From Flavobacterium acetivorans (lineage in GTDB: Bacteria > Bacteroidota > Bacteroidia > Flavobacteriales > Flavobacteriaceae): a stretch of DNA of 64,000 nucleotides. The notes below the pieces were generated by a model. That model searched no databases, was not told where the DNA came from, and saw only the letters and a program-made list of their open reading frames with translations. The position numbers and the translations under genes were made by a program. Below, one piece after another: positions 6,625-47,251 of this stretch. Location of the stretch: contig NZ_CP087132.1 in assembly GCF_020911885.1 (NCBI RefSeq), positions 1,922,001-1,986,000 on the forward strand, given 5' to 3'. Numbering within the stretch: position 1 is the stretch's first letter; each line of letters opens with the position of its first letter.

Positions 6625-8046
6625 TCAACAAGCGTTAATTTTTAACCCTAATTTTTTAGCTCTTTTTAGCATAAAATCATAGGCGGCTTTATAGTCGTTT
6701 GGGATTTCGCCTTCAAGAATTGCCTCTTTTATTGCTTCTTTGAGAATTCCGATTTCTCGGGATGGTTTTAAATTAAAAATTTCCATAATTTCTTCTCCTG
6801 AAATGGGTGGTTGAAAATTGCGAACATGGTCGCGTTCTTCCACTTCCACGATTTTCTTGCGGACAATTTCAAAATTATTATGGTATTTTTTGAACTTGCT
6901 TGGGTTTTTAGTGGTAATATCCGCTTCGCATAAAGTCATTAAATTCTCTACATCTTCACCTGCATCAAAAACTAAACGACGTACGGCTGAATCCGTTACA
7001 GTATCCTGTGACAAAACGATGGGACGAGAACTCATCATAACCATTTTTTGAACAAATTTCATTTTTTGGTTCAACGGCATGTGCAATCTTTCGAAGATTT
7101 TTTTGACCATTTTTCCGCCTAAAAATTCATGTCCGTGGAAAGTCCAACCTTGTTTTTTGTTGAAACGTTTCGTTGGTGCTTTTCCAATATCGTGCAACAA
7201 GGCAGCCCAGCGTAGCCAGACATCATCTGTGTTTGGGCAAATATTATCAACAACTTCCAGTGTGTGATAGAAATTATTTTTATGGGTATGCCCTTCAATC
7301 TCTTCCACCTGATTCAAAGCAGTCAATTCAGGAAGAATGATCTCTAGAAGACCTGTTTTGAATAACAATAAAAATCCAACAGATGGTTTATCAGTCGAAA
7401 GCATCTTGTTTAATTCATCAACAATGCGTTCGCCGGAAATGATTTTAATTCGCTCAGCATTTTTCTTAATAGATTCTAATGATTTTTCTTCAATAGTAAA
7501 GCCCAATTGATTGGCAAAACGAATGCCTCTCAACATGCGCAACGGATCGTCAGAATAGGTAATATCGGGATCAAGAGGTGTTCTTAAAGTTTTGTTTTCG
7601 AGGTCTTCTAATCCGTTAAATGGATCTAAGAGTTCTCCAAAATTTTTGGTATTCAAAGATAAAGCCAGCGCATTAATGGTAAAGTCACGACGGCGTTGAT
7701 CGTCTTCTAAGCTGCCATTTTCAACGATAGGATTTCTGCTGTCTTGGGTGTAAGACTCTTTTCGAGCGCCTACAAATTCGATTTCGGTATCCTCAAAACG
7801 GAGCATTGCCGTTCCGTAGTTTTTAAAAACCTGGACTTTTGGTTTTTTTGGAAGTAAGTCCGAAACTTTTAAAGCCAATTCGATGCCGCTACCTACGGCT
7901 ACGATATCGATGTCTTTTTTGAAGTCTCGTTTCAAAATCAAATCTCTCACAAAACCACCAATAACATAGCTGTCAATATGTAGTTCTTGAGAGGCTTGAG
8001 CGATGACTTCGAATATTTTATTGTTTAATGCTTCTTTGTAATTCAT
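6625..8046 (-). CDS. cca: CCA tRNA nucleotidyltransferase / poly(A) polymerase family with HD domain
   Basis: The 473-residue protein has the N-terminal class II nucleotidyltransferase core: GGFVRDLIL near residue 31 and the metal-binding pair in KKDIDIV near residue 43. The neck domain with [14 protein letters not shown] and the [11 protein letters not shown] motif follow. Then comes an HD phosphohydrolase-like domain ([16 protein letters not shown] near residue 286). It adds or repairs the 3' CCA of tRNAs; bacterial poly(A) polymerases share this fold, so assignment to CCA addition is by family. The start codon lies 5 bp from the left arm of the inverted repeat that frames the GxxExxY gene. 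Confidence 0.9.
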
Positions 8047-8050
8047 AATA

Positions 8051-8073
8051 TTTTACCGCAAATTCACAAATTA
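8051..8073. repeat. left arm of inverted repeat bracketing the GxxExxY gene
   Basis: The sequence TTTTACCGCAAATTCACAAA starts at 8051. It overlaps the stop codon of the GxxExxY gene (8071-8073) and lies just outside the start of cca. In inverted orientation it matches 8461-8479 at 17 of 19 positions, and it resembles the arms of the palindrome at 43679-43740. Confidence 0.75.
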
Positions 8074-8454
8074 TTTTTTTGAATCTATAATGCGTTTGTA
8101 TTCTAATGATGTTAAATTGAAATTTGCTAGAATTGCTAATTTATTACCTGATACTTTTAAATAATTTAAACATTGGTTATAATGACTGTTGTCAAAACAG
8201 GCTACGGTTTTAATTTCTAGAATAATTTTATCATAAACTACAAAGTCAGCATAAAATTTATGTTTCAAAATAGTGTTTTTGTAATTTACAGAAAACTCTT
8301 TTTCTCTTTCATAGGGAATGTTTGAATTTTGCAGCTCAAATTCTAAAGCATCTTTATAAACAATTTCGGAGAAACCTTTGCCTAGATGTTTATGTATTTC
8401 GTAAAGTATTCCGACTATTTTATAGTTTTCATCTTTGTAAATGTACTCATCCAT
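8071..8454 (-). CDS. GxxExxY protein (PD-(D/E)XK nuclease-like), framed by inverted repeats
   Basis: The 127-residue product carries the family signature GFSEIVY (Gly27, Glu30, Tyr33) and a PD-(D/E)XK-like core with Asp70 (YADFVV) and Glu80-x-Lys82 (LEIKTV). It ends with the typical LTSLEYKRII segment. The fold predicts a small nuclease or nuclease-derived protein; to my knowledge the function is not established. The gene lies between tsaC and cca. Its ATG is 5 bp from one repeat arm and its stop codon lies inside the other. The arms are inverted copies of TTTACCGCAAATTYACA. The arrangement suggests that gene and repeats move or amplify as one unit; this part is inference. Confidence 0.9.
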   Translation of the reverse strand: MDEYIYKDENYKIVGILYEIHKHLGKGFSEIVYKDALEFELQNSNIPYEREKEFSVNYKNTILKHKFYADFVVYDKIILEIKTVACFDNSHYNQCLNYLKVSGNKLAILANFNLTSLEYKRIIDSKK

Positions 8455-8457
8455 TTT

Positions 8458-8480
8458 TCTGTGTAAATTTGCGGTAAATT
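8458..8480. repeat. right arm of inverted repeat bracketing the GxxExxY gene
   Basis: The reverse complement reads TTTACCGCAAATTTACACA, matching the left arm at 17 of 19 positions. It fills the spacer between the GxxExxY start codon (8452-8454) and the tsaC stop codon (8485-8487), so the whole repeat-gene-repeat unit is about 430 bp. Confidence 0.75.
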
Positions 8481-8484
8481 AAAA

Positions 8485-9057
8485 TTATTTACGAATCAGC
8501 TTTACCTGAGAATCACTTGTCAATTTTATGATTGTAGACGGTTTTCCGGCAATTTTATCGCGTTGCAAATTTACAACATAGTCAACGCCTTTTATAATTT
8601 CGGGGCTAATTTCTTTGAAACTTTTTGGAGTGGGTTGTCCCGAGATATTAGCCGAGGTTGAAACCAGCGGTTTTTTCATGCGCTCCAGTAATTTAAAACA
8701 AAAGGGTTCTTTTACTAATCGGATTCCTAAAGTATTATCTGTTGCGATTAAGTTTGGAGCTACATTACGTGGTTTGTCCAGTACTAATGTAGTTGGGTTT
8801 TCGGAAAGATCCATAATTTGCCAAGCGACTTCAGGAATTTCTTTGAAAACATTGTACATCATTTTTTCGCCGTTCATCAAGACAATCATGCTTTGGGTTT
8901 CGGCTCTTTTTTTAAGTTTATATATTTTGGCTACGGCTTCCGGATTGGTCGCATCACAACCAATTCCCCAAACAGTGTCAGTAGGATATAGAATAATGCC
9001 GCCTTCTTTTATGATTTCGTAGGCGTTGTGTATTTCGGTGTTGATATCTTGAATCAT
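8485..9057 (-). CDS. tsaC: L-threonylcarbamoyladenylate synthase, Sua5/YciO/YrdC family
   Basis: The 190-residue protein is a single YrdC domain. The N-terminal EGGIILYPTDTVWGIGCDA, the KKRAETQSMIVLM segment and the SANISGQPTPKSF motif are the conserved landmarks. It makes threonylcarbamoyl-AMP from threonine, bicarbonate and ATP, the first step of the t6A modification of ANN-decoding tRNAs. The length fits the short TsaC form without the C-terminal Sua5 domain. It follows the glycan acetyltransferase gene after 9 bp, so it may be partly co-transcribed with the glycan genes. Confidence 0.9.
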   Translation of the reverse strand: MIQDINTEIHNAYEIIKEGGIILYPTDTVWGIGCDATNPEAVAKIYKLKKRAETQSMIVLMNGEKMMYNVFKEIPEVAWQIMDLSENPTTLVLDKPRNVAPNLIATDNTLGIRLVKEPFCFKLLERMKKPLVSTSANISGQPTPKSFKEISPEIIKGVDYVVNLQRDKIAGKPSTIIKLTSDSQVKLIRK

Positions 9058-43678: not shown

Positions 43679-43740
43679 ATTTTCACCGCAGATTCGCAAA
43701 TTTTAAAAAGATTTTTAATTTGCGAATCTGCGGTGAAAAT
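43679..43740. repeat. solo palindrome of the GxxExxY-associated repeat family
   Basis: Two 24-bp perfect inverted arms (43679-43702 and 43717-43740) start with ATTTTCACCGCAGATTCGCA and are separated by 14 bp that can themselves pair (AAAAA/TTTTT). The core ACCGCARATTCRCAAATT is the same as that of the 8051-8073 arm. No gene lies between the arms. The element is in the spacer between the FdtA-like and aroE genes, where it may also end transcription from either side. Confidence 0.75.
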
Positions 43741-46054: not shown

Positions 46055-47251
46055 TTAATCAATTTTATTTGACAATTGAACTTCATCCATTACTTCTAAC
46101 ATTATTGCGCAACCTTCCCGTATTTCCTGTTCAGAAATCGTAAGCGGCGGCGTAATTCGAATCGCACATCCTTCAAATAGTAACCAGAATAAAATAAGTC
46201 CTTTGTCTTGACATTTTAATATCACTTCATTTGTTATTGCAGCGCTTTTTGTCATAGCCGCAAGCATTAACCCTTTTCCTCTAACTTCTTCTATCAAAGG
46301 ATGTACCAAAAGTGATTTAAATAGTTTTTCTTTATCTAAGGTCTCGGGCATCAGATTAGTTTCGGTCATTTCTTTCAAGGTGGCTAAGCAGGCTGCCGCA
46401 ATGACAGGATGACCACCAAAAGTGGTGATATGTCCTAGTTTTGGATTATCACTCAACAAATCCATCATTGCCGTTGAAGCGGTAAATGCTCCTACGGGCA
46501 TCCCGGATCCCATTCCTTTTCCCATTACAACTACATCAGGAACTACATCGTAATTTTGAAAGCCAAAAAGTTTTCCTGTTCTCCCAAAGCCTGGTTGTAT
46601 TTCATCCAGGATCATCAAAGCGCCCATTTCGGTGCAACGTTTTCGTACTTTTTTTAGAAAATCATTATGCGGCTGAATAAATCCGGCGCCACCTTGAATG
46701 GTTTCTAATACTATTCCAGCTGTTTTGGTTGTTATTTTTTCTAGATCGGCTTCATTGTTAAAAGTGATGAAATCAACATCGGGAATTAATGGGCGGAAAA
46801 TTTGTTTGCGTTCCTCAAATCCCATGATACTCATTGATCCCATAGTATTACCGTGATAGGCATTGTGGCAAGAAATTAATTGGCTTCTGCCGGTAACGCG
46901 TCTCGCTAGTTTTAGAGCACCTTCAATCGCCTCCGTACCTGAATTTACTAAATAAGTTTTGTCCAAAGGTTCGGGGAGGAGCGAGGCCATGAGTTTGCAA
47001 AACTCTACTGCTGGGCTTTGAGAATATTCCCCATAAACCATAACATGAGAATATTTGTCCAATTGCTCTTTGATGGCTTGGTTTACTCTTTCCGGTTGGT
47101 GTCCTAGTGTGCAGGCGGAAACGCCCGCTACAAAATCCAAGTATTTTTTATTGTTAGAATCGTAAATATAAGAGCCTTTTGCGTAGGATACTTCCATACC
47201 CAATGGATGAGGGGAAGTTTGTGCTTGGTATTTAATGAAATCGTTGTTCAT
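46055..47251 (-). CDS. class III PLP-dependent aminotransferase
   Basis: The product has 398 residues from the ATG at 47249-47251. Class III features are YVNSGTEAIEGALKLARR-like text (LVNSGTEAIEGALKLAR), HNAYHGNTMGSMS, LILDEIQPGFGRTG (written MILDEIQPGFGRTG) and the PLP lysine in VVMGKGMGSGMPVGAF. The C-terminal TFGGHPVIAAACLATL is typical of the acetylornithine/ornithine/GABA group. The specific substrate cannot be read from the sequence. A 128-bp spacer separates it from the TPR gene downstream, and ostA-like lies 89 bp upstream. Confidence 0.85.
   Translation of the reverse strand: MNNDFIKYQAQTSPHPLGMEVSYAKGSYIYDSNNKKYLDFVAGVSACTLGHQPERVNQAIKEQLDKYSHVMVYGEYSQSPAVEFCKLMASLLPEPLDKTYLVNSGTEAIEGALKLARRVTGRSQLISCHNAYHGNTMGSMSIMGFEERKQIFRPLIPDVDFITFNNEADLEKITTKTAGIVLETIQGGAGFIQPHNDFLKKVRKRCTEMGALMILDEIQPGFGRTGKLFGFQNYDVVPDVVVMGKGMGSGMPVGAFTASTAMMDLLSDNPKLGHITTFGGHPVIAAACLATLKEMTETNLMPETLDKEKLFKSLLVHPLIEEVRGKGLMLAAMTKSAAITNEVILKCQDKGLILFWLLFEGCAIRITPPLTISEQEIREGCAIMLEVMDEVQLSNKID

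Follow-up and report, generated by a model that had tools for sequence, protein, structure and literature searches.

The locus described here raises two questions: whether a small nuclease-like protein acts on the inverted repeats that enclose its own gene, and whether gene and repeats travel as one unit. The window, that is, the whole stretch of 64,000 nucleotides analysed (Flavobacterium acetivorans, contig NZ_CP087132.1, positions 1,922,001 to 1,986,000), carries a gene of the GxxExxY family set between two inverted repeats, called arms below. A first-pass annotation had proposed a small mobile unit whose protein acts on its own repeats. We now consider it somewhat more likely than not that the GxxExxY protein, together with its arms, represents the gene-bearing form of a repeat system like the REPINs (hairpins formed by doublets of repetitive extragenic palindromic, REP, sequences), with a Cas4-like nuclease that is unrelated to the RAYTs (REP-associated tyrosine transposases). 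The protein probably works on its own repeats and helps to spread them, because the same repeats also occur as scattered gene-less hairpins, which are commonest where a genome has the gene. Positions are those of the window, and G, L and C numbers denote genomes, loci and contigs.

8071-8454, minus strand: GxxExxY protein gene, 127 amino acids, predicted PD-(D/E)XK fold (TIGR04256, PF13366, fold model)
8050-8072, plus strand: arm 3' of the gene; its two-unit form, ACCGCAAATTCACAAATT, spans 8055-8072 and overlaps the stop codon
8462-8480, minus strand: arm 5' of the gene, minus-strand reading TTTACCGCAAATTTACA, second unit decayed

The protein has a predicted nuclease fold and is under purifying selection

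The window protein scored 129 bits against TIGR04256 (cut-off 35), which makes it a member of the GxxExxY family, and it also matched PF13366 (PDDEXK_3). Only families of the PD-(D/E)XK type exceeded their own cut-offs, and the family searches gave no transposase match. Residues E30, D70, E80 and K82 (protein numbering) were invariant in an alignment of 60 sequences, and the motif residues G27, E30 and Y33 were present in all 60 rows. The predicted fold matched SSO0001 best among the structures of the PDB, and matched archaeal Hjc nucleases and the restriction enzymes BpuSI, SwaI and EcoRV as well; SSO0001 is a Cas4. A profile search of PDB sequences with the window protein returned weak matches only (4ic1 at E 0.37). 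With its catalytic residues conserved, the D...ExK active site included, and a confident model, the protein is confidently predicted to be a PD-(D/E)XK nuclease.

Selection on the gene was purifying, with a median ratio of nonsynonymous to synonymous substitution rates (dN/dS) of 0.138 over 137 pairs, and an internal stop was found in one of the 80 closest relatives. The genome of the window holds five GxxExxY genes by protein search, or six by hidden Markov model. The family is named in PMC8934634 and PMC12085832, and PF13366 occurs once in PMC9756366. No function for it was found in the literature, nor any paper tying GxxExxY or PDDEXK_3 to repeats (as judged by titles, abstracts and passages), in a search that most subscription journals and all preprints lay outside.

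Inverted arms enclose GxxExxY genes

In the window, TTTACCGCAAATTCACA at 8052-8068 and TGTAAATTTGCGGTAAA at 8462-8478 form an inverted repeat with 16 of 17 positions matching, and 17 of 19 match over the longer stretch (8050-8068 against 8462-8480). Together with the family scores, this bears out the early description of a 127-residue PD-(D/E)XK-like gene between inverted arms. As seen from relatives, one arm consists of two 9-bp units. Since the two-unit form puts the left arm at 8055-8072, the stop codon (8071-8073) overlaps it, as had been stated; the start codon, placed 5 bp from the other arm at first, was measured to be 7 bp away. The locus had an arm score of 23, whereas none of 450 shuffled flank pairs scored above 19, and a score of at least 19 was used as the threshold for arms.

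The threshold was passed by 66 of the 90 GxxExxY loci tested in the genus (the 60 extra loci being the best-scoring listed matches rather than a draw from all matches; L070, L083, L091, L094 and L095 of 30, cut by contig ends, were excluded beforehand). It was reached by one of 50 window ORFs (open reading frames) of at least 150 amino acids and by two of 20 neighbouring ORFs. Neither of the two outcomes named beforehand as speaking against the first-pass reading was observed: most genus loci tested were armed, and unrelated window ORFs were not. The median arm score in the genus was 22.5 for a locus's own flanks and 12.0 for flanks paired across loci. The family was present in 79 of 101 Flavobacterium genomes and in 152 of 296 genomes of Bacteroidota, and 19 of 29 loci of the phylum were armed (L204 of 30 excluded).

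Each arm is an array whose units measure 7-8 bp, and the unit classes include CGCAAAG, CACAGAG, CGCAGATT, CACGAATT and CATTAAG. Units lie about one turn of DNA apart and mostly face inward. Among units fitting CRCNRAK, 250 of the 347 spacings listed were 8-12 bp, and inward units outnumbered outward ones by 388 to 52 in the genus and by 186 to 52 in the phylum. The letters vary even among the GxxExxY copies of the window genome. Of its five loci examined, L001 (the window gene) and L003 passed the threshold; L002, with CGAATT units on both sides, partly within the coding end, and L004, with CGCAAAG units on either side, scored below it, and none were seen at L005.

Arms were also found on Bernardetia and Bacteroides plasmids and on one Sphingomonas plasmid. 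Seven plasmid records had the family, and both arms were clear in three (L189, L190 and, with the coding end included, L192); L186 had one shared unit only, and no arms were found in L187 and L191. Phages gave no match for the family. On a Fusobacteria plasmid (L188, CP102406.1), a direct, non-inverted repeat of about 22 bp, CAGATTTAATCCGTGTACCTAT, was seen by eye to flank the GxxExxY gene.

Gene-less hairpins accompany the gene

The same class of unit occurs away from any GxxExxY gene, and one such site lies in the window:

43680-43739, no strand: gene-less hairpin of the same unit class as the arms (ACCGCAGATTCGCAAATT paired with its reverse complement), located where two genes converge

The pattern RCCRCNNATTCRCNNAT occurred 20 times in the genome of the window and not at all when read backwards. 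Sites outside the window locus were intergenic with respect to ORFs of at least 100 amino acids, the exception being a doubtful 160-residue ORF across 43685/43718. Besides the gene's arm, 12 of 19 sites were head-to-head pairs, and in the relative G006 50 of 78 sites were paired. The window hairpin folded at -28.4 kcal/mol (z -10). It is missing from the orthologous place in the relative G017, and a precise insertion was considered and rejected: its ends are undefined because the G017 spacer is too diverged, and a hairpin common to both genomes (L333) has changed its form. Two other arrangements were observed. On contig C10 of G005 (46202-46836), gene-less hairpin sites recur every 192 bp, which may reflect tandem repetition of a stretch with a hairpin in it, and on contig C22 of G007 (178966-179486) three same-direction sites, ACCGCGAATTCGCGAAT, stand 336 and 168 bp apart.

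Sites were counted over 101 genomes, with p-values that ignore phylogeny. The median was 24 sites in the 29 genomes whose gene shares 60% identity or more with that of the window (the subfamily), 9 in the 20 with only 49-58% relatives, 6 in the 30 with only other GxxExxY genes and 1 in the 22 without any GxxExxY gene. Subfamily genomes exceeded all others with p 8e-8, with p 4e-7 after two arms per genome were subtracted, and with p 2e-7 when only intact genes were used. On a tsaC tree of 24 genomes judged by eye, four of five nearest-relative comparisons favoured the gene (G006 > G015, G000/G017 > G019, G021 > G013, G023 > G012).

The letters of the hairpins were compared with the arms in 12 of the 29 subfamily genomes, picked to cover three arm classes (for G005, with 14 listed of 97 sites). 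Gene-less sites fitted the resident gene's arms at 0.687 and the arms of other genomes at 0.498, and 7 of 20,000 permutations did as well. The fit to the resident arms was good in eight of the 12: the resident gene ranked first or tied first in G062, G107, G023, G053 and G005, and second or third in G000, G003 and G021. The comparison with RAYT proteins that was drawn at the outset gains support from the enrichment of gene-less hairpins with the gene and, in these eight genomes, from their letters.

The gene is resident and its arms change together

8485-9057, minus strand: tsaC-like gene, conserved neighbour
6625-8046, minus strand: cca-like gene, conserved neighbour on the opposite side

The two neighbours are called tsaC and cca below. 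With cca starting at 8046 and the tsaC gene ending at 8485, the element fills the spacer between them, in agreement with the first reading. Of the 80 closest relatives of the window gene (the best 80 of 167, from one-per-species genomes), 79 share its place between tsaC and cca, in taxa that include Flavobacterium, Gelidibacter, Confluentibacter, Mariniflexile, Aequorivita, Wocania and Tamlana. Because this site is shared so widely, the window copy is resident and is no recent insertion. For 28 other subfamily genomes, both tsaC and cca were in the fetched locus in 22 and at least one of them in 26. Spacers that lack the gene, which had been suggested as a check, do exist in relatives: of 30 tsaC loci, nine held the gene or part of it, 16 had a shorter spacer without the gene, and five stopped short of cca and were left unjudged.

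Some of these loci are of interest in themselves. The gene-less spacers L038, L039, L042, L047 and L052 contain other short repeats (such as TTTCAGTTT, CTTTAAAC and GATTTGAA). At L043 (G001, tsaC-cca), the GxxExxY gene is reduced to its 3' part between two intact and matching arms, a state that marks a possible route from a gene-bearing element to a solo hairpin. Flavobacterial-type tsaC-GxxExxY-cca loci were also present in metagenome-assembled genomes titled Klebsiella, Limnohabitans, Bdellovibrio, Rhizobium and Bifidobacterium (L228, L244, L270, L293, L300); those titles may be wrong or the bins mixed.

Both arms fitted the scaffold RCCRCNNATNCRCNNATT in 77 of 80 orthologues (L286, L298 and L301 were excluded before the arm comparison). 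The two arms within one locus differed on average at 1.08 of 18 positions, and the same arm across loci differed at 5.9 of 18 where the proteins were 60-65% identical and at 7.3-7.5 where they were 55-60% identical. At two positions all four units agreed in 75 of 77 loci, with A in 40 and G in 35. On the protein tree, the 5' arm underwent 57 changes and the 3' arm 44, with 10 coincidences between them; under random placement the mean was 4.1, and as many as 10 were reached in 6 of 2000 trials. When 5' and 3' arms were scored across 123 loci, the mean was 24.9 at a protein identity of at least 80% and about 11 below 50% (Mantel r 0.536), so that arm class follows the protein. This correlation is partly plain descent, since 188 of 364 pairs with at least 70% identity share both flanks. 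The idea of a small mobile unit is not supported for this copy, given the shared site, the low dN/dS and arm letters that change in place. The multiplying part seems to be the hairpin rather than the window gene.

Alternative explanations

Several results speak against assigning the hairpins and arms to the work of the protein. Twenty-four of the 90 genus loci fell below the arm threshold. A locus's own arms scored 23.4 and those of the nearest protein relative 22.0, with the own score higher in 69 of 123 loci, and few of the concerted switches are independent. The nearest-relative comparison was mixed around G003, and in the letter test the resident gene ranked fifth to tenth in G060 (fifth), G017, G041 and G089, with a poor fit in the last three. 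Genomes with only 49-58% relatives (p 0.0002) and those with only other GxxExxY genes (p 0.0009) also exceeded the genomes with none. The association of hairpins with the gene is therefore graded and extends beyond the subfamily. In G059, 35 sites were counted although the genome lacks GxxExxY genes. G072, G106, G092 and G046 hold 56-112 sites, yet their listed subfamily match is interrupted by an in-frame stop. In G006 (78 sites) and G105 (22 sites), neither tsaC nor cca adjoins the subfamily gene, and no arms could be recognised. Finally, the search for RAYT-like ORFs, which found none in 396 loci, was a motif search of the fetched loci and not genome-wide.

The site-rich genomes with an absent, broken or armless gene also favour an alternative that we regard as unlikely, namely that the hairpins were spread by a RAYT, another transposase or replication slippage and that GxxExxY genes are passengers which landed in them. 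It gains further from the unrelated S23/four-helix-bundle family, which is present in 60 of 61 genomes of the genus (loci L156-L185) and lies between inverted short-period arms at 16 of 28 loci (L164 and L184 of 30 excluded), with other units such as CTAAG, CAAAG and TTAGA. Among unrelated genes, window ORFs thus lacked arms as a rule, but the S23 family had them, built of different units. Against passengers, however, hairpin number tracked the subfamily and the total of GxxExxY copies (rho 0.56) and was not correlated with S23 copies (rho 0.19, p 0.15) in the 61 genomes with S23 counts, within which the subfamily effect persisted (p 3.5e-5). The fit of letters to the resident arms and the blank motif search for RAYTs in the fetched loci point the same way.

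An ordinary small insertion element, with gene and arms moving together and the window copy recently inserted, is improbable. Patchy presence of the family across the phylum would suit it, as would the empty sites in relatives of plasmid loci (L190 against L398, L192 against L399). Moreover, 142 pairs with at least 70% protein identity and no detectable flank similarity had a mean arm score of 17.2, compared with the value of about 11 below 50% identity, a value that would fit an occasional joint move of gene and arms. Target-site duplications were not found, the empty sites being too diverged to define ends. The single site of nearly all closest relatives, the purifying selection and the lack of a transposase family match all argue against such an element.

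We give little credence to an action of the arms in RNA, where pairing in the transcript would serve to insulate the small gene, to terminate it or to process it, and where selection for pairing would keep the arms alike. The arms are able to pair, and the gene-less hairpin between convergent genes is terminator-like. However, the arm mismatches had no G-U bias (16 compatible, 27 incompatible), and RNA pairing is therefore an unlikely cause of the matched arms; it was rejected, with Rfam also giving no match in 7900-8600. A terminator scan did not call the 43680 hairpin, though its loop limit of 8 would miss it, and the association with the gene would be left unexplained. A restriction-like role of GxxExxY, as a nuclease of defence or a toxin, with arms that are only capture hot spots, is hardly credible, for although the restriction-endonuclease-like fold and its matches to BpuSI, SwaI and EcoRV would fit, the window gene alone occupies the space between its arms, and neither the matched letters nor the genome-wide hairpins would be explained.

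Proposed mechanism

The reading of the GxxExxY gene as part of a REPIN-like system draws on the computed fold, the inward arms, their matching within loci, the association of hairpins with the gene, the fit of hairpin letters in most tested genomes and the fixed site; from these we infer binding, cutting and copying. The protein, probably a dimer or a larger assembly, would bind the units in pairs at a hairpin, at a cruciform or across two arms, and would nick or cut the DNA at the units. Repair or replication restart would then copy hairpins to new intergenic sites and would also convert the arms towards one sequence. Copying and conversion together would explain both the dispersal of hairpins and the matched letters. 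The gene itself would rarely move and would be kept like a domesticated RAYT. A wider proposal, which we put forward tentatively and at somewhat less than even chances, is that GxxExxY proteins are repeat-specific nucleases running a second, RAYT-independent REPIN system in more than one bacterial phylum, in which each lineage recognises its own letters, copies its hairpins and converts arms and hairpins to one sequence.

Comparison with known systems

As described in PMC8049555, REPIN-RAYT systems comprise inverted doublets and a vertically inherited nuclease gene, with more doublets where the gene is present. The system described here resembles them in the inverted repeat copies flanking the gene, in the dispersed gene-less intergenic hairpins made of two inverted short repeats, in a nuclease gene long kept at one place and in the larger number of hairpins where the gene is present (with phylogeny partly controlled and exceptions). 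In contrast, its partner is a predicted PD-(D/E)XK nuclease and not a HuH Y1 enzyme, its arms string units together at intervals of roughly one helical turn, and there are often several GxxExxY paralogues per genome, whereas RAYTs are described as single-copy. Given an unrelated enzyme and a different arm architecture, the GxxExxY system is no RAYT system. A GTAG/CGTC tag at the base, named in the title of PMC3733652, is a feature of REPs, and no such foot was seen by eye in the arms or in the window hairpin.

The S23p intervening sequence is described in PMC4990558 as a small gene between inverted repeats, with tandem GACAGAT units before the start codon, and is called a selfish element of unknown mobility. 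A small gene between inverted repeats with short units is common to both, and the S23 genes of the genus are comparably armed. However, S23p is an unrelated four-helix-bundle protein encoded within 23S rRNA, from which RNase III excises the sequence as RNA, whereas the window gene encodes a TIGR04256 protein in the tsaC-cca spacer, outside the 23S rRNA gene. MITEs (miniature inverted-repeat transposable elements) are gene-less inverted pairs of DNA transposons, and gene-less inverted pairs likewise stand alongside a gene-bearing copy here, but neither a match to a transposase family nor a target-site duplication was seen. Compared with SSO0001 and the archaeal Hjc nucleases, which are among the PDB matches of its predicted fold, the window protein has just 127 residues and lies between its own repeats.

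For a family of thousands (5898 proteins found) for which the literature gave no function, these results offer a testable job. If the proposal is true, resident nucleases would have become partners of genome-wide hairpins at least twice, from HuH and from PD-(D/E)XK enzymes, and the arm letters, variable among species and matched within each locus, would provide a natural specificity series for binding and cutting.
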